Virus record (IMG/VR): IMGVR_UViG_3300017963_000517
Coordinates: 1 to 35,537 of that record
DNA length: 35,537 nt
Reading direction: 5' to 3' (one strand)
Source of the DNA: a virus
Positions 14,614-27,964 of this stretch are shown here, in pieces (position 1 is the stretch's first letter; every line of letters starts with the position of its first letter). The notes beneath the pieces were generated by a model. The model was not told where the DNA came from and ran no database searches. It saw only the letters and a list, made by a program, of their open reading frames with translations. A program made the translations under genes and the position numbers.

Positions 14614-15077
14614 TATCTTATTCTTATACTTCCAGGTAACTGTTTGGTTTTATAAAATGAATATGCCGACAGTCCCGTACTTCCTAATCCCGTTAAAAGT
14701 GTACTCCTTGATTGATATTTTGCGGTTTTTTTAGCCTGTCTTCCTTGGAATCTATACAAATCGGCTGTTTCCTGCGCCCCGGTTCGAATATTTAAAGCCT
14801 CTTTTTCACCTTCTGCGGCCGTATCCGCAAGAACCGTCAATGGACTTCCGGAAGACAGATCAACACCGGCCTTTGCATACAAAGCCCTTTGAGTTCCAAG
14901 AAGTTGCTTTAATTTTTTCCTTGCTATTTCCTCTTCTTGAATTCCCTTTCTTTCGGCTAATCGAGCATTATATTCAGCAGCCGCAGCCTCGGCCTCTCCA
15001 GCTTGTCTCTGCTGCATTGCCGATTGAATCGTGCCAAAAGCCTGAACAGCTAATAATACATAAGGAAGCGCACTCAT
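14613..15077 (-). CDS. Internal virion protein (T7 gp14-like)
   Basis: The 154-residue product has a hydrophobic N-terminus (LPYVLLAVQAFGTIQSAM), a long Ala/Glu-rich helix (EAEAAAAEYNARLAERKG) and the block LLGTQRALYAKAGVDLSSGSPL. The same layout is seen in gp14-type internal virion proteins of podoviruses. A second hydrophobic stretch (TLLTGLGSTGLSAYSF) lies near the C-terminus. In infection such proteins leave the capsid and help form the DNA channel through the host envelope. It is coupled by TAATG to both neighbours. Confidence 0.72.
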   Translation of the reverse strand: MSALPYVLLAVQAFGTIQSAMQQRQAGEAEAAAAEYNARLAERKGIQEEEIARKKLKQLLGTQRALYAKAGVDLSSGSPLTVLADTAAEGEKEALNIRTGAQETADLYRFQGRQAKKTAKYQSRSTLLTGLGSTGLSAYSFYKTKQLPGSIRIR

Positions 15078-15523
15078 TATGTCCTCGCATACATTAGGAA
15101 GTCCTCACCATTTGGACCATATTTTTTCAAAAGCCCTTCGGGTTTAAATCCAAGGCGTTCAATAAATTTCTTGCCGTCTTCGTAATCCGCTACGACAACA
15201 GTTTGCAACCTTCTCAAATTATTGGTCTTGACAATAAGATCAAGGTGTTCTTTCACGGCTTTAAATACTGTCTTTTTGTACTTTTTGATTTCCGAAGATA
15301 CCAACATCCAGCATTCACCCCTGTTGTATCCAAAGAGTATCACACCGCCACAGCCTATAATCTTATCATCAACAAACAGAGAGTAGGACGGTCCCGCAGT
15401 TTCCCATTCTTTTGTCCAGCTCTCCCAATCCTTTAATTTAGAAAGTTGCAGATCAAAGTCTTTTACGTTTTTGTCTAAAACCTGATAGGCGTGATCTGCT
15501 TTATAAGGAACGATCTTAACCAC
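15077..15523 (-). CDS. GNAT-fold protein (T7 gp13-like)
   Basis: The start is probably GTG 15523, since a GGAGGT ribosome site lies 8 bases before it; the frame itself is open from 15550. The 148-residue product fits the GNAT acyltransferase fold: YSLFVDDKIIGCGGVILFG (strands 2-4), a helix with YKKTVFKAVKEHLDLIV, and ADYEDGKKFIERLGFKPEG, the usual motif near the acyl-CoA side. T7 gp13 and its relatives (DUF2833 type) are GNAT-like and are needed for virion assembly. It sits between the nozzle gene and the gp14-like gene, the same relative position as in T7-like phages. Confidence 0.72.
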   Translation of the reverse strand: MVKIVPYKADHAYQVLDKNVKDFDLQLSKLKDWESWTKEWETAGPSYSLFVDDKIIGCGGVILFGYNRGECWMLVSSEIKKYKKTVFKAVKEHLDLIVKTNNLRRLQTVVVADYEDGKKFIERLGFKPEGLLKKYGPNGEDFLMYART

Positions 15524-17768
15524 TGATCTCGACCTCCGCCACAAGAGCAAGAACGGTCATTGGAAGTGGAACATCCTGAACAATTGAAACTTCCGCATCC
15601 TCACCCCAATCACCATAAAACTCTAAACTCTTAGAACCGGTAAAAAGTTCTGGATCCTCTCCGATGCCAAATGGAATTGGTTTCAAGTTGTCTGTGTCGT
15701 AACCGACTTTTGCACTACAGGTTTCATAAAAATCGAGCAGGATCTCTCCTATTTTTTTCTTTTTACCCCTGGTAGATCCAGATCCAGAATCCACATGAAT
15801 TTTAGAAGGTTCGATAATAGAAGTGAAATTTAATCCAATATGAATTAAGTTTCCGTAATATGTTAAACTGACTTCGCCGGAATCCACCGTAACATCTGGA
15901 TGAACGGCACCGTCCATTAAAACGGACACCGACTCACCTTCAAGATGATCGAGCCCTGTCACATCCTTTTTGACTTTCTGAGCGGTTCCGCCTGATGTGT
16001 AGGTTCCCCAGCCAGATGAATTTATCCCAGACAACTCAAGAGTGTTTGCCGCTTTATTTGCAACGGTATAAGCCGAATCAAGACCCTGATTAACTTCTGT
16101 CATACCCTCAACATCTTTTATTCTGATTTTATCCCCGTTTTCAAATGAATGGCCGGTGATTGTCACCACTGCAGGATCGGCATTTGTAATGCCTTCTATA
16201 TCTTCGGCATCGCCCCCATCCCATGTCAGACCGGAATGAACGAAAAAACAATCTTTGATCTGGGAGAAAAACTCCATGGGTTTAAAATATTCAACATATC
16301 TTTTCGTTGAACCGCCTATGGTTCTGTTTACAATAACCCAAATCTGATCTTCTTCGTTTTCATCGCTTATCACAGCAACGGACTCAAAACTTCCATCCGT
16401 AACGATTCTGAACCATGCATATATTTCCTCCTGAACCTCATATGTCATGCCTATAAGCTGACCATCGGCACGAACAGCCCATAAGATAGGAAGGGGCTCG
16501 CTTTGAATATCCATATCCACAATACCGGATGTGGCAAGCGTGGCACCCATGGCAATATGCTTTGAAACCCTTGTCATATCTGGAGCGATATATTTGTCTG
16601 TTTCAAAAGAATATACAATTTGCTTTACACTTCTTCCGCTTCGCGTTACCCAAAGCAACGCATCCGCAACCTTTTGAGGTTCAATATTTTTAACGCCAGC
16701 ACTTATTTGTTTTTTACAAACCACATTTGTTTGTGTAATAGGGTCTTCGGCGCTTGAAGCGCCCATTTTAAAAATACCACCGACAGTTCCAATCATTAAA
16801 TAGTCTTGTCCAAAAAGCCACCGGGTTCTATCAACACGGTTTGAAGCAATGGTATATTCTATTCCTGCACTATCATCGTCAGTATCAATAGCAAAATTGT
16901 CATAATCACTAACATGGCTAAGATGAATGGTTTGTGGATTGTTATTTGTTCCAGCAGCAGCTAATCTTTGTTCAAAAAATGTGCCGCATGAAGGATTTTC
17001 GTCATTAAGGCCAAAAAGACATTCTTGCGCCGTACCGCCAGAAACATAAGCATTATAGCCAGTTGAATCTTCATCTACCAACTCGAATGTTCCACCAGCA
17101 CCAGTTACAACATTGTCAACCTTGAAATAACGATTATTAACTTCCGTCATTCCAACAACGCCCTTTATATAAACCGTACAGTCCCATTGAGCGCAAAATA
17201 TTCCACCGGCAACACATTCGCAAAACGTTGCTGGAATGTTAGCACAAGTTACCACCGCAGGGTCGGCTTTGGTAATGCCAGTGATTACCATTGCATCACT
17301 GATTCCAGCCACAAAATCATCAAGCGTCCAATTCGTATGGCTTGTACGGGTTAAAGTTTTCGGCGGATACTCTGGATGAAATATATAAAGAATGTCTGCG
17401 CTCTGGGTAAACTTTAATTCAAAAAGATGCTCTTCGGCATAGGTCGTTGTAATTTCAACGGGATTTCCAGCATCAAGCACCTGGCCCTCATCCTTATACA
17501 CACGAATATAATTTTCTCCGAATTCCAGAATATACGCTTGGATAGTGGAGAAGTGAAACGGAACCAATTTTGAAGCCTTGGAAGACGTTTTTGTTTCCAC
17601 CACAAAATAATTTCCGGGCATTCGCATGGCTCCGCCCTCAACAAGAGGAATCATGTTTTCAAGCGTACGGCATCCTGAATGATACTTTGTGATATCGCTT
17701 CGTGCAGATATCTTCGGGCTTAATTCACCCCCGTTAAAGGAGTTTATGAGCGGATTAGCCTGTGCCAT
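15516..17768 (-). CDS. Tail tubular protein B / nozzle with two FCCH-like repeats
   Basis: ATG 17768 overlaps the previous stop as TAATG; the upstream in-frame extension is ignored. The 750-residue product starts with NSFNGGELSPKISARSDITKY, then GCRTLENMIPLVEGGAMRMPG, the standard opening of podovirus tail nozzle proteins. Two related inserts, near 170-255 and 545-625, share ITxADPAVVT, VEGMTEVN and SGGTAQ. This repeat is often labelled ubiquitin-activating-enzyme FCCH-like in phages, although it has nothing to do with ubiquitin here. The protein should form the tail tip below the adaptor encoded by the gene upstream. Confidence 0.8.
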   Translation of the reverse strand: MAQANPLINSFNGGELSPKISARSDITKYHSGCRTLENMIPLVEGGAMRMPGNYFVVETKTSSKASKLVPFHFSTIQAYILEFGENYIRVYKDEGQVLDAGNPVEITTTYAEEHLFELKFTQSADILYIFHPEYPPKTLTRTSHTNWTLDDFVAGISDAMVITGITKADPAVVTCANIPATFCECVAGGIFCAQWDCTVYIKGVVGMTEVNNRYFKVDNVVTGAGGTFELVDEDSTGYNAYVSGGTAQECLFGLNDENPSCGTFFEQRLAAAGTNNNPQTIHLSHVSDYDNFAIDTDDDSAGIEYTIASNRVDRTRWLFGQDYLMIGTVGGIFKMGASSAEDPITQTNVVCKKQISAGVKNIEPQKVADALLWVTRSGRSVKQIVYSFETDKYIAPDMTRVSKHIAMGATLATSGIVDMDIQSEPLPILWAVRADGQLIGMTYEVQEEIYAWFRIVTDGSFESVAVISDENEEDQIWVIVNRTIGGSTKRYVEYFKPMEFFSQIKDCFFVHSGLTWDGGDAEDIEGITNADPAVVTITGHSFENGDKIRIKDVEGMTEVNQGLDSAYTVANKAANTLELSGINSSGWGTYTSGGTAQKVKKDVTGLDHLEGESVSVLMDGAVHPDVTVDSGEVSLTYYGNLIHIGLNFTSIIEPSKIHVDSGSGSTRGKKKKIGEILLDFYETCSAKVGYDTDNLKPIPFGIGEDPELFTGSKSLEFYGDWGEDAEVSIVQDVPLPMTVLALVAEVEISG

Positions 17769-18430
17769 TATCTCCCTGCATCCTCCCAATCAGAATTGCC
17801 GGTTTCATTCTCAAGATATTCACCTTTTCGATCATGCGCCTCTGCCCAATCTAAAGCTTTTTCATATCGAAGCATCATGGTATCGTAAATTCCTTTGCCT
17901 TTAGAAAGCGGCATGGTTAATTCAGCGGCCAATCTGAACGCAAGGGCATTGATAAATGATGCTGAAAACTTATTCACATCAACCACCCTTCTTATATAGA
18001 TGATATACAGGTCGGCAGATGAATTGTCGTAATCGGTTGCCAGAACCATCGTGCCATCAGAAAGCGTTTCAATGCTGTAGGAATATCTTGTACCCTCAAT
18101 TTCAAACTGTCCGAAAACATAAGAAGTATGATAAGACCCTGAAGGATATACGCATGGATCGTCTTCTTTGTTTTCAGCAAGCTTTAAAAAGTCAGAAGGA
18201 AGAGTGTAGGCGTAATCATAGCCGAATGCAGGGGAAGAAGGATTTTGAACAAGGGCTTTCCTGGTTCGCGCGAATGACCAATTTCCAGCTTCAAGAACTT
18301 CGTCCCTGATATAATCCCAGACATTGTTTGCCGCAATAGCTTGGGCGGAATCCTCGCCAGCATCTACGATTCTTAAAGCGCCGATCCGCCCAAGCGCCAT
18401 ATTGATGACACCCGTTTTGTCATAGGCCAT
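17768..18430 (-). CDS. Tail tubular protein A (head-tail adaptor)
   Basis: A 220-residue protein with the family opening INMALGRIGALRIVDAGEDS, followed by CNLCY-independent markers: an Ala-rich AIAANNVWDYIRDEVLEAGNW segment (near 29-50), YDYAYTLPSDFLKLA (near 71-85) and IYIRRVVDVNKFSASFINALA near 150. These match T7 gp11-type adaptor proteins that join portal to nozzle. A GAGGG ribosome site precedes ATG 18430. It is coupled with the nozzle gene by TAATG. Confidence 0.8.
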   Translation of the reverse strand: MAYDKTGVINMALGRIGALRIVDAGEDSAQAIAANNVWDYIRDEVLEAGNWSFARTRKALVQNPSSPAFGYDYAYTLPSDFLKLAENKEDDPCVYPSGSYHTSYVFGQFEIEGTRYSYSIETLSDGTMVLATDYDNSSADLYIIYIRRVVDVNKFSASFINALAFRLAAELTMPLSKGKGIYDTMMLRYEKALDWAEAHDRKGEYLENETGNSDWEDAGR

Positions 18431-18433
18431 TTT

Positions 18434-18763
18434 TTAACCCTCGGTTTCGGATTTCTCAACCTTTCCGGCTGCCAAGGCTGCCTCGCAATGGCCCAAATGG
18501 AGAGAAATGTTTTTTACTTCTTTGTCGCAATATTTACATTTAACCATTTTAGCCGGCTTCGGCTCGACAACACCGGGTATCTTTCTCGTAGTCTGGATCA
18601 GCTTTCCTTTTTTATCCTTGGTTTTGTGATACACTTCGGTTCCCGGGGGAAAATCAAAATACAAAGCAATCGGCTCCATGGGATCGATATCGTCTGTATC
18701 CCCGGGATAATACCTTCTGCCTCTTTTTGTGCACCAACAACGCCTTTTACAAGTAACAACCAT
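18434..18763 (-). CDS. Small Cys-rich protein with zinc-finger-like tail, 109 aa
   Basis: A strong GGAGG site precedes ATG 18763. The N-terminus is basic with three Cys (VTCKRRCWCTKRGRRYYPGD). The middle carries a TDDIDPMEPIALYFDFPPGTEV stretch typical of small head proteins. Residues about 75-93 read KCKYCDKEVKNISLHLGHC, a C-x2-C...H-x3-H/C zinc-finger-like unit. It lies between the cement protein and the tail adaptor, so a head-completion role is possible. I do not recognise the family. Confidence 0.6.
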   Translation of the reverse strand: MVVTCKRRCWCTKRGRRYYPGDTDDIDPMEPIALYFDFPPGTEVYHKTKDKKGKLIQTTRKIPGVVEPKPAKMVKCKYCDKEVKNISLHLGHCEAALAAGKVEKSETEG

Positions 18764-18785
18764 TTTTTCCTCCGTAATTCATGGG

Positions 18786-18803
18786 GGGGGCTTTTCAGCC
18801 CCC
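18786..18803 (-). other. Strong G/C hairpin between head genes
   Basis: AGCCCCC at 18797-18803 and GGGGGCT at 18786-18792 form a 7-bp stem with a 4-nt loop, 12 bases after the stop of the cement-protein gene. No U-run follows on the - strand, so it is not a classical terminator. It could protect the 3' end of the capsid-cement mRNA or slow ribosomes and lower tail expression. Confidence 0.5.
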
Positions 18804-18814
18804 GTTATTTAAGT

Positions 18815-19216
18815 TTAGGCAGCGCCATCCTTATTGGTACCAAACCACATGGTAACTTCGCCCAATGTTGCCGACTCGGATACGATATCAAACAATGCTC
18901 TTGCATATCGCAAACACGGAATTGAGCCCATTGGCACATAAAAGTGAGCCCCAAGGGTAAGGTTGGCAACCGGAATAAACATGCCGGAATGCTTGGTTGT
19001 TGGCGAGGTCGCGGCACCATGAACGATCCAGAGAATCGCTCCGCTGTCAAGATCCGTGAAGGCTTCTGTGACAACCATGTGGAGGCCAAACTCTCCACCG
19101 GCATTTACATTTGGAGTTGTTTGCTCGAAATCAACTTCATTCTCGCTGTATTCATCGGCAGCATGACCGATATCAGCGTCATCATGAAGTAAATATTTAT
19201 AGTCATACATAGGCAT
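18815..19216 (-). CDS. Capsid cement/decoration protein (Bbp16-like)
   Basis: A 133-residue beta-rich protein directly downstream of the capsid gene. The chain DYKYLLHDDADIGH..., LHMVVTEAFTDLDSGA, TLGAHFYVPMGSIPCLRYARALFDI and GEVTMWFGTNKDGAA resembles the BPP-1 cement protein Bbp16, a jelly-roll subunit that clamps capsid subunits from outside. The match is by pattern and gene position, not by calculated alignment. A strong ribosome site (AAGGAGG) suits the high copy number expected. Confidence 0.7.
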   Translation of the reverse strand: MPMYDYKYLLHDDADIGHAADEYSENEVDFEQTTPNVNAGGEFGLHMVVTEAFTDLDSGAILWIVHGAATSPTTKHSGMFIPVANLTLGAHFYVPMGSIPCLRYARALFDIVSESATLGEVTMWFGTNKDGAA

Positions 19217-19248
19217 TTTACAGCCCTCCTTTTTGCCTTGTTTAAGGT

Positions 19249-20265
19249 TTAAGTAACTTCGGTTTCTGTTTCATCGAGCATCTCGGCCTTATAAACCGGA
19301 ATGCCTCTGAACACCGTAATATTTCCGCCCCATACGTTATCCGGAAGATAACGCACATTGGTTTTGTCCTTGGCCCGAATGTCGAGATACTCTTTAACAC
19401 TTGCAGATACCAACATTACCGTACCGGGAGCCGCCCCGCCGCTCGGAAGCCTGTTAATCATCCTGATGGCATTGTCCTCATCAAAGATATTAGACGAGCC
19501 GGTTACTTCGATATTAGCCAACCTCTGAACGCATCGCTCGTCTTTGACCACAAGGCCCATATACCAAGCGAAATGAGTTCTCAGGACTTCCATGTATTTT
19601 GGTGTAGCTAAAGTGTTTGTGTTGGCGGTATGCTTTCCGAGATCTTCAATATGAAGACCGCCCGGAAGGTTTTTAGGATAGATCCCGAAAACCTTATTTT
19701 TCCCGAGCTCAAGAATCCATACGCTCGTTGTGTCACCGCCGGAACCGCCTTGATCCAATACGTGAGGCTGCCACGTGGTATCACCGTTTGGATAACGATC
19801 AATCTCGTTAAACCGTACCGCCAGTCCGTTAAACGCAGCAGGATCAGAAGCCAGAGAACCATAAAGAATAAGATCTTCCATTTTCTGAGTCAAGCCCTCG
19901 ACCTTGGCCTGATCTTCGTCCTGCCTCCATGCGTTAGGATCGTTCTGAATTTTCCAAAGCGCATAATCAACCTCGGAATAATCTTCCACCATGGCGATCG
20001 GATCGGTGAACGGTGTTTTATGAGATGCGGAAAGGACAACACCCTCATTGAACCGCCTGGTTCCAGGTGTCGGGATATATGTCCTTCGAGCATCGATGTT
20101 GGACATTATTTGATTACTTGCGACCATTGGAAGCAACCTTATAAGAGGACACTTCCGCGCAAGAATATTTGCAGCCCATATATACTGAGCCTGTGCATCT
20201 AAGGATGTGTAGGAATTAACCACATCCATAAGAGTGTAATATCCTAAAAGGTCTGTTGAGGCCAT
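19249..20265 (-). CDS. Major capsid protein (BPP-1 Bbp17 / epsilon15 gp7 type)
   Basis: The likely start is ATG 20265 behind GAAAGGAGAG; the frame is open further upstream but that part covers a structured leader. The 338-residue length matches the ~335 residues of epsilon15-type capsid proteins. Recognisable parts are NILARKCPLIRLLPMVASNQ near 30-47, RTYIPTPGTRRFNEGV, a segment rich in YSEVDYALWKIQNDP near 95-110, and the C-terminal YLPDNVWGGNITVFRGIPVYK. It should adopt the HK97 fold. It lies between scaffold and cement genes, and its translation start is 20 bases after a complex RNA element shared with one other gene. Confidence 0.85.
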   Translation of the reverse strand: MASTDLLGYYTLMDVVNSYTSLDAQAQYIWAANILARKCPLIRLLPMVASNQIMSNIDARRTYIPTPGTRRFNEGVVLSASHKTPFTDPIAMVEDYSEVDYALWKIQNDPNAWRQDEDQAKVEGLTQKMEDLILYGSLASDPAAFNGLAVRFNEIDRYPNGDTTWQPHVLDQGGSGGDTTSVWILELGKNKVFGIYPKNLPGGLHIEDLGKHTANTNTLATPKYMEVLRTHFAWYMGLVVKDERCVQRLANIEVTGSSNIFDEDNAIRMINRLPSGGAAPGTVMLVSASVKEYLDIRAKDKTNVRYLPDNVWGGNITVFRGIPVYKAEMLDETETEVT

Positions 20266-20284: not shown

Positions 20285-20381
20285 GGGCAACAAAAAAGGG
20301 GCAAACAGATTGAGTGGGTGAGCACTCACCTGCTGCCCCTTAGTTTTTTTGCTGTCCTCTACTGGCCGGTAGAGTTAGCCC
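20285..20381 (-). promoter_or_regulatory. Structured RNA leader E1 before the capsid gene
   Basis: Read on the - strand it fills the scaffold-capsid gap. In order: block GGGCTAACT; hairpin CTAC/GTAG; block AGGACAGCAA; stem AGGGGCA/TGCCCCT enclosing hairpin GGTGAG-TG-CTCACC; six U; block GTTGCCC, which can pair back with GGACAGCAA over 8 of 9 positions. An alternative pairing TGAGTG/CACTCA competes with the inner hairpin. The same blocks and architecture recur at 23560-23663 with different stem sequences that still pair. GC stem plus U-run looks like an attenuator or terminator, and no promoter separates it from the capsid start. It may also be a processing or stability element. Confidence 0.65.
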
Positions 20382-20387
20382 GAATTG

Positions 20388-21107
20388 TTATGGTTTCGGA
20401 GACTTGTCATACATCATTCCGGTTTTGCCTTCTTTTTGTTTCAAAGGCGTGCCGGGCGGAGTGGTATCATCCCCCATGGCCTTACCAATTTCAAAAAATG
20501 CTCTGATAAGGACAGGATGATTTCCCAGTCCGGTTTCATCAAGGAATGCGTCAAACTCAGCCCCCGAAAATTTTTGAAATGCACGTTTTGTGATTTCAAG
20601 GTTTTCGTCGTAATCAGCCCCCCAATCGGTTTTAAGCTTTTCATCAGCTTCGGTCTTTGAACTTTCCGCTTTTCTATTGATCTCTTCATTCAAGCCCTGA
20701 ATAAAACCGTCCCAGGCTTGAGAAATCAAAGTGGCTTGATCTTTTGATAGGTTTGCCTTGTGGAAGGTGTCTCTCGCCCAATTAGTCATAGCCTCATCGT
20801 GCTCGACACCCTCTCCTTTTGGAAATTCGTAATCCTCCGCCTTTTCTGGAACGCCTAAAGCTTTAAAGAATGCTGATTTTTCCTCCGGTGTGGATTGCTC
20901 AGTCAACTTGGGGATATAATCCTTGGTGATACTTTCCTCAAAGGTTGTAACTTTCCCCTGAAGTTCATTCACCCTCCCATCAAGCTCACTGGCCTTCCCC
21001 ACAGTGTCGAGATGTGCTTTTGCAAAATCTCCAATAGTCTCGAATGAGGTAAAAGCTTCGTTCTCTTTCAGGTCGTCCGGTAACTGTGCCATCCATTCAC
21101 CCGCCAT
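20388..21107 (-). CDS. Head scaffolding protein
   Basis: A 239-residue acidic helical protein directly upstream of the capsid gene. Its N-terminus WMAQLPDDLKENEAFTSFETI plus GDFAKAHLDTVGKASELDGRV is the usual start of phage scaffolding proteins of this kind. A predicted coiled coil (ELQGKVTTFEESI) and the block PEKAEDYEFP near 95 are also typical. The C-terminus is charged (PLKQKEGKTGMMYDKSPKP), as for capsid-binding scaffold tails. The ribosome site AGGAG is strong. No protease motif seen. Confidence 0.75.
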   Translation of the reverse strand: MAGEWMAQLPDDLKENEAFTSFETIGDFAKAHLDTVGKASELDGRVNELQGKVTTFEESITKDYIPKLTEQSTPEEKSAFFKALGVPEKAEDYEFPKGEGVEHDEAMTNWARDTFHKANLSKDQATLISQAWDGFIQGLNEEINRKAESSKTEADEKLKTDWGADYDENLEITKRAFQKFSGAEFDAFLDETGLGNHPVLIRAFFEIGKAMGDDTTPPGTPLKQKEGKTGMMYDKSPKP

Positions 21108-21121
21108 AATCTATACTCCTT

Positions 21122-21352
21122 TCACTCTTTTGGTGAGTTTTTATATTCCATCTTGGCATTAGCTATGCGCTGCATAGCCTCTGCTTTGGCCTTTTGATCT
21201 TCAGCTATTTTCTTAGCAACTTCTTGTGCCATCTTAAATCTTTCTGGGTCCGCCTTTATGACTTCTGCCTCTGTAAGAGTGTGTGCATCATTTTCAGCCA
21301 TCCACTCTTTTTCTTCCTCTGTTTTATCCGGCATTGCTACTGTGTCTGTCAT
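21122..21352 (-). CDS. Small helical hypothetical protein, 76 aa
   Basis: Starts in the ATGA overlap with the 49-residue gene. The product is acidic at the start (MTDTVAMPDKTEEEKEW) and then one long charged helix rich in Lys/Ala (MAQEVAKKIAEDQKAKAEAMQRI). It is encoded immediately before the scaffold gene and could be a head-assembly accessory. No family recognised. Confidence 0.55.
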   Translation of the reverse strand: MTDTVAMPDKTEEEKEWMAENDAHTLTEAEVIKADPERFKMAQEVAKKIAEDQKAKAEAMQRIANAKMEYKNSPKE

Positions 21353-21498
21353 TGTTTCTTCCTTTTTCTTTTACGCAATTCAGCCCCCTTGACCTTTCCC
21401 GCATTAATAGAGGCATAAAAAACTTCTTCGCCCTTTTCTTTGCCGAAATGCCTTTTCATTTCAGTAAGTACGGTTTTTCCTTTTTTAGTCAGTGGCAT
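21349..21498 (-). CDS. Small basic phage protein, 49 aa
   Basis: A short gene from ATG 21498 to TGA 21351-21349, coupled to the next gene by ATGA, behind a GAGAGGGAT ribosome site. The product MPLTKKGKTVLTEMKRHFG..., then KGEEVFYASINAGKVKGAE and a very basic tail LRKRKRKKQ, matches a small protein often found in head modules of many phages (MPLTKKGKKI...YGxKKGExVFYAS). Its function is not known to me; the basic tail suggests nucleic acid contact. Confidence 0.7.
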   Translation of the reverse strand: MPLTKKGKTVLTEMKRHFGKEKGEEVFYASINAGKVKGAELRKRKRKKQ

Positions 21499-21500
21499 TT

Positions 21501-21734
21501 TTAATCCCTCTCTATGTGCTCCATATCTCCCGATTTACTTGAGCCTAAAAGCACTTTTTTTAAATCGACCTTGCCATCCTCATATACTTTCAGCCTATAC
21601 TCAACTGTAAGCGGAGGATGTTTTTTAATAGATGTCTGGATTTTGTCCGATACTAACGCGAACATTATAAATCCGAACAAAACGCCAAGCATTCCAACTA
21701 AAAACAATGCATTAATCTGCGACTTCTCTGACAC
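21501..21734 (-). CDS. Small single-pass membrane protein, 77 aa
   Basis: GTG start at 21734 with GGAGGT 8 bases before it, overlapping the O-antigen-ligase-like gene by 23 bases. One membrane helix at about residues 9-27 (ALFLVGMLGVLFGFIMFAL) is followed by a short soluble domain with TVEYRLKVYEDGKVDLKKV. The coupling to the preceding envelope gene suggests a shared role in the inner membrane. No family recognised. Confidence 0.55.
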   Translation of the reverse strand: MSEKSQINALFLVGMLGVLFGFIMFALVSDKIQTSIKKHPPLTVEYRLKVYEDGKVDLKKVLLGSSKSGDMEHIERD

Positions 21735-22815
21735 GAAGCTGTACCTCCAAAATTGCCAGCCATAAAATGATAAGCATTCCGTTTATTGCGTTCATTCTAA
21801 AAGCTGAATTGGCGATACACACGCCGATTACAGCACCGAGAGATGAAAGCGAAATTATACAATGTCTGGGAATTTTAAAATCTCTGATTGTTAATTCTCT
21901 CGCTCTTAAAATCACACTTATTAAAAAATTTACAGTTATGAAAATCGAAACAATTCCCATTTCGATATAGTTTTGAATAAAAGTATTGTGTAGCCTTATA
22001 ATTCCTTTAAAAATAGGCTTTACTTTTATTACGTCTTGATAAATCTCGGTCCATCTGCCAAGACCGATACCCAAAAGGTAAGTTTTATGATGAACTGATA
22101 ACTTTACAGCCTCGGTCCATATATTTAAGCGCCTACTGATATCCGGGGCATCTATAAAAAGCGTATAAAATATAAGACCTGAAAATATTAATACAGGCGG
22201 CCAAAATTTATACCCGTTCAGCCCTGCATAGATTATAAACGCAAGACATAGCCCGACAACACCCCCAAAAGACTTGCTTAATATTAATCCGACAACAGGG
22301 ATCAATATAAAAAAAAGCCAGCCTTTCCGAAAAAACGCCGGAGCGCAAAGAGCCATAAGTGCACTTGATTCATTAGGGTTTGCGGTTAAGCCCGTTGGAA
22401 ACCTCCATTTCACAATAAAAGCCTCGAAAAACAGGATGTATAAATGAAGCATGGCAACAATACATAAGGCATCAAATATGCGTTCACAGTTCTGGCATTT
22501 TAAAACGATAACAGAATAAAACAGGCAGCCCACTGTTATGTTTATCAACACCAAATGAGATTGCATGGTGTTTAATTTACCGGTATATAAAAATGCCGGC
22601 AGAGAATGAGAAATTAACGCCAGCAATAAAAACACTGCTACCCATTTGTTCACGTTCTCATATAAAAAGATCGCAAAAACGAGTAGGGATGCACAAACAA
22701 CCATGAACTCAAAAAGAGCCCTCATGTTCTTTGCAGGAAAATGGATAAATGCAATCATTAAAACGATAGAAGCAATTACCCATTGCCATTTATTGTTTCG
22801 CTGTGTAAACTCCAT
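21712..22815 (-). CDS. O-antigen ligase/polymerase-like membrane protein (Wzy_C family)
   Basis: A ~367-residue polytopic membrane protein with about ten hydrophobic segments. It shows Wzy_C/WaaL signatures: PTGLTANPNESSALMAL near 140-156, LSKSFGGVVGL near 179-189, an Arg/Trp pair in RRLNIWTEA near 228-236, GIGLGRW at 249-255 and LHNTFIQNYIEMGI at 275-288, whose His matches the catalytic-type His of the periplasmic loop. Such proteins join O-antigen or related glycans in the periplasm. Temperate phages can carry polymerase homologues for seroconversion. Its location between portal and scaffold, overlapping both neighbouring genes, is very unusual. Which glycan it uses is unknown. Confidence 0.78.
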   Translation of the reverse strand: MEFTQRNNKWQWVIASIVLMIAFIHFPAKNMRALFEFMVVCASLLVFAIFLYENVNKWVAVFLLLALISHSLPAFLYTGKLNTMQSHLVLINITVGCLFYSVIVLKCQNCERIFDALCIVAMLHLYILFFEAFIVKWRFPTGLTANPNESSALMALCAPAFFRKGWLFFILIPVVGLILSKSFGGVVGLCLAFIIYAGLNGYKFWPPVLIFSGLIFYTLFIDAPDISRRLNIWTEAVKLSVHHKTYLLGIGLGRWTEIYQDVIKVKPIFKGIIRLHNTFIQNYIEMGIVSIFITVNFLISVILRARELTIRDFKIPRHCIISLSSLGAVIGVCIANSAFRMNAINGMLIILWLAILEVQLRVREVAD

Positions 22816-23539
22816 CAAAACCCTTCAACTCTAAATTGGCCGTTGCGTGAGTTGTGGCATTAAACACTTCGATGGTATAAAAATGCCCCGCTGTCATTGC
22901 GGCAATTCCTGTGGCATCCAAGGTCAAAGTCAGGACATCGCATTTGACATCAAGGGATGCCTCGGTTGATGTAACTGTGCTCTGGCCTATCTCAGCGGCA
23001 TCAAACGCTGTGCCATCGGCATTGTCCCAAAGCATCCAATCCAGTTTTGTGCTTGTACCGTCAGCGGTATTAGACGAAATCAGGGCATAAAAAACCAGCG
23101 CCGTATCAGCAACATAGTCCGGTGGCAGCCTAAAGGTTTTTTGAATGCCCGCGGTTTCTCCCGAGTTGTCCCAGATAATAGCCGGGATATTATCAGCAGT
23201 TCCCATCTCCGGCGCTGAAGCATCGTCAATGTCGTCGGCTGAATCAACTACCCAGCCGGCCAAGCCTCCGCCGATACCAGGAAGTGGCCTTGTCACATTG
23301 GCAATTTCACCGGCCCCCACTTTTTCAGCCGGAAGTATGACATCAGTGTTGACGGTCAACGTATTAATGTTTGCGGTATTCCACGGAGCATCCGAATTAC
23401 CCAAACATCCGACACTGGGACGATCCGGATTTTCGCATCTGCCTACGGTCCCTCCGCAACCGTACCCAGACGCATAAGCCATGCCAGCAGTCATTAAAAC
23501 GATCAAAATTGCCACTAAAACTTTCTTAAAAATCTTCAT
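22790..23539 (-). CDS. Secreted jelly-roll-like protein, 249 aa
   Basis: The ATG at 23539 has a GGAGGAAAGGA ribosome site and opens a signal peptide (MKIFKKVLVAILIVLMTAGMAYA, mature SGYGCGG). The first mature segment has three Cys (GYGCGGTVGRCENP, VGCLGN). The rest looks like a beta sandwich: IIWDNSGETAGIQKTFRLPP, YVADTALVFYALISSN, KLDWMLWD. Similar beta domains occur in phage head fibres and decorations. It is located in the head cluster, is preceded by RNA element E2 and overlaps the O-antigen-ligase-like gene. Either an exported surface protein or a virion decoration added outside the cytoplasm. Confidence 0.62.
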   Translation of the reverse strand: MKIFKKVLVAILIVLMTAGMAYASGYGCGGTVGRCENPDRPSVGCLGNSDAPWNTANINTLTVNTDVILPAEKVGAGEIANVTRPLPGIGGGLAGWVVDSADDIDDASAPEMGTADNIPAIIWDNSGETAGIQKTFRLPPDYVADTALVFYALISSNTADGTSTKLDWMLWDNADGTAFDAAEIGQSTVTSTEASLDVKCDVLTLTLDATGIAAMTAGHFYTIEVFNATTHATANLELKGFDGVYTAKQ

Positions 23540-23559
23540 TTTCCTTTCCTCCGGTTTCC

Positions 23560-23663
23560 GGGCAACAAAAAAAGGAGCGAAGTGTAAGCCGATAAATCGG
23601 GTGTGAGCCTCACACTTGCTCCTTAAATTGCTGTCCTTTGGGGAGCTACCCCTCAGTAAGCCC
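23560..23663 (-). promoter_or_regulatory. Structured RNA leader E2 before a secreted head-cluster gene
   Basis: Second copy of the element before the capsid gene. On the - strand: GGGCTTACT; hairpin GGGG-TAGCT-CCCC; AGGACAGCAA; stem AAGGAGC/GCTCCTT extended by AAGTGT/ACACTT; inner hairpin GTGTGA-GGC-TCACAC or CCGAT/ATCGG; seven U; GTTGCCC. The flanking blocks are nearly identical to E1 while the stems differ but keep pairing, as expected for a selected RNA fold. AAGTGT can pair either with the outer ACACTT or, shifted, within the inner hairpin, so two mutually exclusive folds exist. It ends 10 bases before the ribosome site of the 249-residue gene. Confidence 0.65.
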
Positions 23664-25874: not shown

Positions 25875-27404
25875 CTAAGCCTCCATTCCATATTTTAAAG
25901 GATCGTATGAACCGTCCTCTTCTTTGTTCATACCAAACTTCATAGGGTCATAAGGATTGCCCGGGATAAGAATCTTCTGTTGCATAATTTCTATCGGCAT
26001 TTGTATGGCAATGTCTATACCTGATCTTACATAATATCTTGTGCAATCCATCAAATGATCGTTTTCCTTGACTACCTTGCCGTTTTTATCCCTGCGATAT
26101 AACCTGAATTCCTCAAACCATGGAGCGCAAGACCTGAAAACTTTTAATTTTCCGGTTGAAAGAGCGACAAAAACATCAAATATACCAGCCTCCCTTGCGT
26201 TATCAGCAGGAGAAAGCTCTAAACCAAGATCAACGTATTCGTCCATTAGTTTTTCGCCGTCTCTCTGACTTGAAGCCCTCGCCCCTGGATCTGCAACCCC
26301 TGGTATCCATTTCCCCCTTGATTTTATGGCCTGAACATGAACCGGTGGCTCAGACAGGCCTTTTTTATAGACAGAATATATATAAGATGTGCCGGTATCC
26401 CGGTCTGTAGCCCCCCACGCTGCGGCTGTGCAGTTCCAGCCCACATCAAAACCATACGCCCTTGACCAATATGGAGGTATTGGAAAATCATCAATCACAA
26501 TATAATCTTCAAGAAGCGGATATATAGCCCCCGACCCCAACTGAGGTATGCCTTTAGATCTTGCATCCCTTTGGTGCGGAGGCAAACTGGCCCATCGTTC
26601 CTTCTTTTCTTTTTCCGAAAGATGAGGCGCATCATCCCAAGTCGCTTGAATTACAAATCTCATAACCTGATCATGCGGTCCTGGAAGTTTTCCATCGGGC
26701 ATGAACTTCTTGACAACCTCGGACACCCCCTGCAGAGGGGTAAAAGTCAACATAATCATACCGCCAGTTGTCATAATGCGGATCAGGCATTCATTATAAA
26801 CATCGTCCGGAGGCTCCTCATCCAGCAAGATCACATCCTGCTCAACACCTTCAAATGCCTTCCTGCCCTGCTCGTATGACTTAAAACCTAAGACAGAAAC
26901 CCCACCGGTAACATGCTGGATAAAAACTGTTTCTATGGCATCAGGAATCCCCCCAGCCTTGCGCTTATAATCCAAAATACAATCATGGGGAATCAAACCC
27001 GTACCAATATCAGAAATCGGTCCCAATAATTTGTGTTGCAGAATATCTCTTGTGGTCTGATTCGTGGTGCCTGAAGCCCAGGCCTTTATTGGACCGGTAA
27101 ATCTATACCCTTCCCACCAATCAGGATAAATGCCCGTTAAATGACAGGTCAGCTCATAACCCCCCATTCCTTCGGTTTTCCCAATCCGATTCGCAGCCAT
27201 GGCGCCGCGCTCACGAAATTTCTTACCCGCTCGAAAAAATTCCATGTGTTTCGGATAATTATGCCGCGACAACGGACCTGTCTCTGGATAAAAAGATTCT
27301 ATCTTCTTATGCTCATATCGCCGTACGCGCTCTTTTAAACGAATATATAAGAGTTCTTTTTCCCTGCGGCTTAATTTTGACAGGTCTGGCTTTGCTTCCA
27401 GCAT
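25875..27404 (-). CDS. terL: Terminase large subunit
   Basis: DNA-packaging motor ATPase and nuclease of 509 residues. The ATPase part has a Walker-A-like AANRIGKTEG at 70-79 (GKT at 75-77), Walker B VILLDEEPP at 191-199, and the coupling motif TFTPLQG at 220-226. The nuclease part has its first acidic residue at D320 in YGFDVGWNCTAAAW and another likely in WIPGVADPGARAS near 372-384. It docks on the portal encoded two genes downstream and works with the small subunit encoded at about 31.3 kb. It overlaps the sigma-factor gene by 34 bases, an unusual coupling. Confidence 0.88.
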   Translation of the reverse strand: MLEAKPDLSKLSRREKELLYIRLKERVRRYEHKKIESFYPETGPLSRHNYPKHMEFFRAGKKFRERGAMAANRIGKTEGMGGYELTCHLTGIYPDWWEGYRFTGPIKAWASGTTNQTTRDILQHKLLGPISDIGTGLIPHDCILDYKRKAGGIPDAIETVFIQHVTGGVSVLGFKSYEQGRKAFEGVEQDVILLDEEPPDDVYNECLIRIMTTGGMIMLTFTPLQGVSEVVKKFMPDGKLPGPHDQVMRFVIQATWDDAPHLSEKEKKERWASLPPHQRDARSKGIPQLGSGAIYPLLEDYIVIDDFPIPPYWSRAYGFDVGWNCTAAAWGATDRDTGTSYIYSVYKKGLSEPPVHVQAIKSRGKWIPGVADPGARASSQRDGEKLMDEYVDLGLELSPADNAREAGIFDVFVALSTGKLKVFRSCAPWFEEFRLYRRDKNGKVVKENDHLMDCTRYYVRSGIDIAIQMPIEIMQQKILIPGNPYDPMKFGMNKEEDGSYDPLKYGMEA

Positions 27405-27964
27405 TTTTTAAACGCCTTTCTAACCTTTCTCGATACCGAAAGAATTATCTGAGATACTCGAGTATAAGAAATTCCCTTCATGTCGCCAATCTCGCGCAAA
27501 GTATAACCATCCCAGAAATACAGCTTTAATATCTCAATAGTATCTTCTCGGCATTTTAAAGTGTTTATATGTGCAAAGATTTTTTGAACCAAATCCTTAT
27601 TACAAACCTTGCCTTCAGTGCCATTCACAGAATAGGCCAATGAATTTTCAAAAGAATTAAAGTTTTCGGGGTTCGAAAAATTCACTTTTAATAAAGCTGC
27701 TTTATCAGTACAATTCCTCGGCGTTCCAGAAACCATTCTGAGATGGTCCAGAACACCCCCGCGAATCTTTATTCCAGCAAACGTCCCAATAGTAGCCCCC
27801 ATGGATTCATCATAATTATCAATCGCCCTTATCAAAGATTCAACAGCAGCAGATTCACAATCGTTGCGAGTCCAAGAATCGTTTATATTTCTATTCGTAC
27901 ATATCTTCCCGGCAATAGACTTCGCAAAAGATGTATAATTCAAAACTGTTTCGTTTCTATTCAT
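27371..27964 (-). CDS. Phage-encoded sigma-70-family factor
   Basis: A 197-residue protein with sigma region 2 at about 8-80 (AAVESLIRAIDNYDESMGATIGT, then FAGIKIRGGVLDHLRMVSG, close to the FliA/WhiG pattern of KIRGxxLDxLR) and region 4 at about 124-187 (ILKLYFWDGYTLREIGDMKG, YTRVSQIILSVSRKVRKAF, a helix-turn-helix). Region 3 appears short. It should direct host RNA polymerase to chosen phage promoters, probably late ones. It sits inside the packaging operon and its 3' end overlaps the terminase gene. Which promoters it uses is not evident. Confidence 0.78.
   Translation of the reverse strand: MNRNETVLNYTSFAKSIAGKICTNRNINDSWTRNDCESAAVESLIRAIDNYDESMGATIGTFAGIKIRGGVLDHLRMVSGTPRNCTDKAALLKVNFSNPENFNSFENSLAYSVNGTEGKVCNKDLVQKIFAHINTLKCREDTIEILKLYFWDGYTLREIGDMKGISYTRVSQIILSVSRKVRKAFKKCWKQSQTCQN

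Follow-up and report, generated by a model that had tools for sequence, protein, structure and literature searches.

Promoters, ribosome sites and plain terminators are usually seen as the controls on the proportions in which phages make their head proteins. In phage T7, how much capsid message is made relative to downstream message is set by the late terminator T-phi, a leaky plain hairpin in the head operon that follows the capsid gene, and both T7 and lambda provide precedents for RNase processing of phage messages. The putRNA of phage HK022, a nascent RNA of ∼70 nt with two hairpins that is linked to termination, is located downstream of early promoters (PMC9378689). Here we analyzed a 35,537-nt stretch of viral DNA (IMG/VR record IMGVR_UViG_3300017963_000517, positions 1 to 35,537; hereafter the window), in which two copies of a structured RNA element lie on the minus strand, copy A (20285–20381) before the major capsid gene and copy B (23560–23663) before a gene for a secreted protein. 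We find that the element belongs to a real and dispersed RNA family, ∼90–112 nt in length, that recurs in mostly unrelated uncultured phages and has no counterpart in the databases searched here. Our preferred reading, to which we give about an even chance, is that the element acts as a transcriptional attenuator in the late operon of head genes, in the form of an intrinsic terminator that is leaky or conditional, and as such it probably sets the amount of head proteins made.

The element shares part of its anatomy with several described systems. Like intrinsic terminators and attenuators, it has a GC-rich hairpin followed by six or seven U residues (U6–7), lies within an operon and has a terminator strand with an alternative pairing, but it differs from them in its sequence-specific 5′ domain, GGCUAAC-P2-GGACAGCAA, in the conserved pairing letters after the U-tract, and in having no leader peptide or known ligand. 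As proposed here, it would resemble T-phi as a leaky terminator that sets a message ratio inside a head operon, but the element precedes head genes whereas T-phi follows the capsid gene. With putRNA it has in common two hairpins in a nascent phage RNA and a link to termination, but its copies sit among head-cluster genes rather than in an early-promoter region, and no common sequence is evident. Riboswitch leaders likewise have a small conserved domain before a terminator whose strand has two partners, but the element has neither an association with metabolite genes nor a match in Rfam.

Both window copies contain the same blocks in the same 5′ to 3′ order: GGGCTWAC, the hairpin P2, GGACAGCAA, an A/T-rich spacer, the long hairpin P3, U6 or U7, and GUUGCCC. 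Copy A begins with the conserved block GGGCUAAC (20374–20381, minus strand), in which GGGC is the 5′ strand of helix P1, GCU is the strand of an alternative pairing and UAA is a joint; this is followed on the same strand by P2 (CUCUAC/GUAGAG, 20357–20374), GGACAGCAA (20349–20357), P3 (20298–20339, consisting of the strand X, its complement in the loop X′ and the terminator strand X″), the U6 tract (20292–20297), which is kept in all copies, and GUUGCCC (20285–20291), the 3′ strand of a predicted three-way junction in the read-through RNA. Copy B, also on the minus strand, has P2 at 23636–23656 (GGGG/CCCC, with mismatches in the interior), GGACAGCAA at 23628–23636, P3 with an inserted hairpin CCGAUUUAUCGG at 23574–23622, and U7 plus GUUGCCC at 23560–23573. 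The conserved blocks of copy A and the 3′ end of copy B are defined from an 11-copy alignment. An earlier reading of the window from its letters alone (the sequence-only reading) had placed two elements at these positions, with their blocks in this order and with compensatory changes in their stems, and this is what we find: from copy A to copy B, CUAC/GUAG becomes GGGG/CCCC and GGUGAG/CUCACC becomes GUGUGA/UCACAC, with pairing kept. Both copies fold more stably than their dinucleotide shuffles (z −5.6 and −3.9).

A scan of IMG/VR with a three-part pattern yielded five further carriers and two other contigs of the window phage, and patterns with one block dropped each yielded L159, L225, L258, L269 and L306, all of which contain the block that had not been asked for or a close variant of it. 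There are thus 12 distinct copies in 11 phages, the 10 further copies each in a different IMG/VR contig; record searches found a second copy only in the window phage, the other carriers, some of them short fragments, having one each. Eleven copies have the same anatomy, and the 12th, that of L306, comes close to it. Since the outside copies were fetched with patterns from copies A and B, the conservation of the core letters partly reflects how the copies were picked, but the pairing in P2 and P3 was not part of the patterns. A covariance model built only from the 10 outside copies recovers both copy A (E 2.6e-14) and copy B (E 4.8e-12) in a search of ∼145 kb (the E-values are rough, from a short calibration), which argues that the two are not chance. 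The model could be used for searching other collections. Looser scans added little: with the pattern GGACAGCAA..GTTGCCC, all but the window-phage contigs were judged chance among the matches listed, and most matches in the last pattern scan were also chance, L306 alone being real.

Consistent with the sequence-only reading, which could match the element to no known family, none of the 4227 families of Rfam 15 reached its gathering score in searches with permissive filters of the window, of copy A alone and of six other contigs. A preQ1-like match on copy A (14 bits against a threshold of 39) was discarded, as the A-rich tail is absent from most other copies. In public genome contigs, a strict pattern had no matches and a relaxed pattern had only chance matches; 384 Omnitrophota genomes, an uninformative set picked without a hint to the host, contained no match; and blastn of INPHARED with three copies as query found no full relative. 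A weak 20-bit match lies between the capsid and tail tubular A genes of the marine Autographiviridae podophage AP013547.1 (L301:2436–2517); it includes GGACA and UUUUUUUGUGCCC, and may be a distant relative or a plain terminator. A related-locus search with the L225 and L258 portals returned only the two query phages, and searches of open-access papers turned up no account of an RNA of this kind.

The structure of the element is conserved and covaries. In a MAFFT alignment of 11 copies, a model consisting of the three-way junction (P1 GGGC/GCCC, P2 and AGCAA/UUGUU) and the base of P3 has 92% of cells paired, compared to only 46–62% for slid pairings. The three-way junction model has 18 double-sided changes versus 6.4 in shuffles, and its covariation score of 0.264 (versus 0.127 in shuffles) lies above those of all 500 shuffles. 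Most of the covariation is in P2, and P1 contributes one covarying pair, its outer G-C, which is U-A in L159. RNAalifold recovered the three-way junction unprompted, and on the 10 outside copies it chose the alternative GCU/AGC with P2. The joints of the junction, UAA and GAC, are conserved, and may resemble the UAA/GAN loop motif. A Watson–Crick palindrome (GGCC, AGCT, TGATCA, TAATTA or TCGCGA) lies within or next to the loop in nine of the 11 P2 hairpins, which suggests possible kissing-loop dimers.

In every copy, a GC-rich stem ending in CC or CCC is followed directly by U6–7, as expected of an intrinsic terminator, and the strand opposite the U-tract, the spacer, varies in sequence and length. 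The conserved letters on either side are predicted to enter different folds. For an RNA ending at U6, most copies are predicted to form GCU/AGC, P2 and P3, the terminator hairpin, but with GUUGCCC present every one of the 11 copies is predicted to favor the form closed by P1 over the GCU/AGC form, by 2–7 kcal/mol. From these energies, the conserved letters appear to serve two exclusive folds, one before read-through and one only after it. The long-range pairing of GGACAGCAA with GUUGCCC in the sequence-only reading is better described as GGGC/GCCC plus AGCAA/UUGUU in competition with the local GCU/AGC. In addition, X, at the top of the 5′ strand of P3, has a second complement of 5–7 bp, X′, in the loop of 11/11 copies, which is beyond chance (the runs sum to 58, versus a mean of 34 and a maximum of 47 in 2000 sets of shuffled loops). 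Thus, in the predicted folds, the element has strands with a mutually exclusive second partner, as attenuators and riboswitch platforms do, both in X′ and in GCU/AGC versus GGGC/GCCC with AGCAA/UUGUU. We considered a role of X′ as a timer of terminator formation and rejected it, since the long stem wins ∼13 nt before the end of U6 with real and shuffled loops alike.

The placement of the element is nearly constant. All copies are on the coding strand, and nearly all start a few to ∼50 nt past a stop codon and end 15–35 nt before a start codon, such that the setting is nearly always a stop codon, the element, and the Shine–Dalgarno (SD) sequence and start of a head-cluster gene; the gaps to neighboring open reading frames are longer or less certain in L154 and L306. 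Upstream of copy A is a putative scaffold gene (20388–21107, minus strand), assigned by its position before the capsid gene in a gene order that relatives keep and without a Pfam match; downstream of the copy is the major capsid protein gene (19249–20265, minus strand; Pfam GP7, E 1.2e-69). Copy B follows an 89-aa gene located after the portal and precedes a 249-aa gene (22790–23539, minus strand) with an N-terminal signal-like stretch seen by eye and no Pfam or PHROG match. For each copy, ∼20 nt separate the element from the start codon, and the ribosome site is purine-rich. A consensus promoter scan lists no minus-strand site inside either copy or between either copy and the gene start. The claim that each copy fills the gap from stop codon to ribosome site with no promoter between is thus borne out. 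In the other carriers (assigned by position where there is no family match), the downstream gene is a scaffold-position gene between portal and capsid in L153, L225, L258 and L269, the portal in L154, a head-maturation-protease-related protein in L159, a 171-aa gene between terminase and portal in L158, a PHROG protease-related gene in L155, and small genes upstream of the putative portal in L157 and L306. The portals of L225 and L258 are only 46–49% identical, and in both phages the element stands before the next structural, scaffold-position gene. The structured RNA with alternative folds and terminator-like anatomy that had been described before head-cluster genes in the window therefore extends to ten other phage contigs.

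Capsid homologs of the window phage (49–74% identity, plus a group at 32%) occur in the same gene order with no element before the capsid gene, and none in those records that were searched with the model. Thus, the element has been gained and lost independently of the capsid gene. The suggested tie to the most abundant virion products is not supported, since phages with homologous capsids are without the element and the gene after copy B encodes a secreted accessory protein, which need not be abundant.

How might such an element work? In nascent RNA up to the U-tract, GCU/AGC and P2 can form, and with polymerase at U6 the P3 terminator hairpin can form and would halt a fraction of the polymerases there, so that upstream message would be in excess over downstream message. 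Any polymerase continuing past U6 would make GUUGCCC, after which the RNA could refold into a three-way junction of P2 closed by GGGC/GCCC and AGCAA/UUGUU, the joints being UAA and GAC, just 5′ of the next gene's ribosome site. The outcome would be a set ratio of cistrons and, on the downstream message, what is probably a structured 5′ leader beside the ribosome site. The 5′ domain, GGCUAAC-P2-GGACAGC, is likely to be the recognition site for a factor or for the polymerase, and would choose between the outcomes. The model predicts that RNA ends map to U6 and that only read-through RNA forms the three-way junction. If it is correct, a sequence-specific RNA would be a portable regulator of head-gene stoichiometry common to mostly unrelated phages.

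The invariant U6–7 behind a GC clamp, together with pairing beyond the U-tract, suggests an attenuator with a working read-through RNA, since a plain terminator has no need of paired letters beyond its U-tract. Moreover, GUUGCCC is present only in read-through RNA and the outer P1 pair covaries in L159, so read-through RNA itself seems to be under selection. Several points weigh against the attenuator reading. The covariation of P1 is limited to that one pair, GCU/AGC is invariant and AGCAA/UUGUU varies only by unpaired cells, so covariation provides no proof of the latter two pairings; X′ leaves the predicted switch point of the terminator stem unshifted relative to shuffled loops; phages with homologous head genes manage without the element; and strong termination ahead of the capsid gene would deprive that gene of transcription, so that read-through would have to be high or regulated.

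The structure, folds and placement agree with the cis-regulatory or processing RNA of the sequence-only reading, which might act by attenuation, by processing or by both. If the coaxial P1/P3 helix were an RNase III-like cut site, it would split the late polycistronic message, with hairpins protecting the ends. The length of the P3 helix, the greater predicted stability of the read-through fold, the paired letters past the U-tract and the position between stop codon and ribosome site would all suit such a site, but a double-stranded nuclease site needs no strict U6–7 with a variable opposite strand, as a terminator does, P3 is short and imperfect in some copies (such as L154), and the element is absent from relatives whose gene order is the same; we consider this reading unlikely. 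Those same relatives speak against a put-like antiterminator, in which the nascent 5′ domain would bind RNA polymerase in cis so that this and later terminators are ignored through the head operon. Two hairpins with conserved flanks and an adjoining terminator in a phage transcript recall the HK022 precedent (PMC9378689), but the sequence and location are unlike those of put, which acts in early operons, and the element would need to carry its own terminator, which makes this improbable in our judgment.

Termination at U6 could instead free a stable RNA of ∼85–105 nt that is cleaved off the upstream message at its 3′ end and acts elsewhere. The element is compact and conserved, ends in a U-tract and has conserved single-stranded blocks, but such an RNA would lack the conserved letters past U6, which are the pairing partners of the 5′ end, and the fixed position just before a start codon favors action in cis, so we regard a trans-acting small RNA as a poor candidate. 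Least credible is a mobile or recombination DNA element (MITE- or REP-like) inserting in the gaps of head clusters: its sporadic occurrence and the syntenic relatives without a copy would fit, but copies A and B are far from near-identical, differing throughout the P2 and P3 stems with pairing kept, and orientation and spacing to the next start codon are near constant.

Beyond the attenuator reading, it is conceivable, if rather unlikely, that entry of transcription into the head-assembly genes is decided by the small conserved domain, which would respond, via the two exclusive folds, to a phage protein or to the state of the polymerase. This would place the element in a new class of regulatory RNA of phages, and in unrelated phages it might link the expression of head genes to assembly or to the stage of infection.

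We also noted features around the element and in its carriers. Directly before the element (∼12 nt upstream of GGGC in most copies), about half of the copies, from different phages, have an AT-rich flank that resembles TAACAATTT. We dismissed the idea that the two conserved blocks form a promoter, as the spacing between them is too variable. In the window, a 197-aa protein with sigma-70 regions 2 and 4 (27371–27964, minus strand), whose gene overlaps the start of the terminase gene, is possibly a phage sigma factor for late genes; a tie between the element and such a factor, with a gene in both the window phage and the phage of L306, was rejected because a non-carrier also has one. The gene immediately 5′ of the element in the head cluster of the L269 phage (L298) encodes, by eye, a GroES-like co-chaperonin. 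The secreted protein forms a module with a Wzy/O-antigen-ligase-like membrane protein (window 21712–23539, minus strand), which is common to two other element carriers (G010 14994–16467 and G025 18192–19794; 47–51% and 28–33% identity) and absent in five syntenic non-carriers; it may serve in surface modification or in the exclusion of other phages. Finally, the window phage is probably temperate, since it has an integrase and a DUF5131/radical-SAM-like gene (765–1931 and 91–762, respectively, both on the plus strand).

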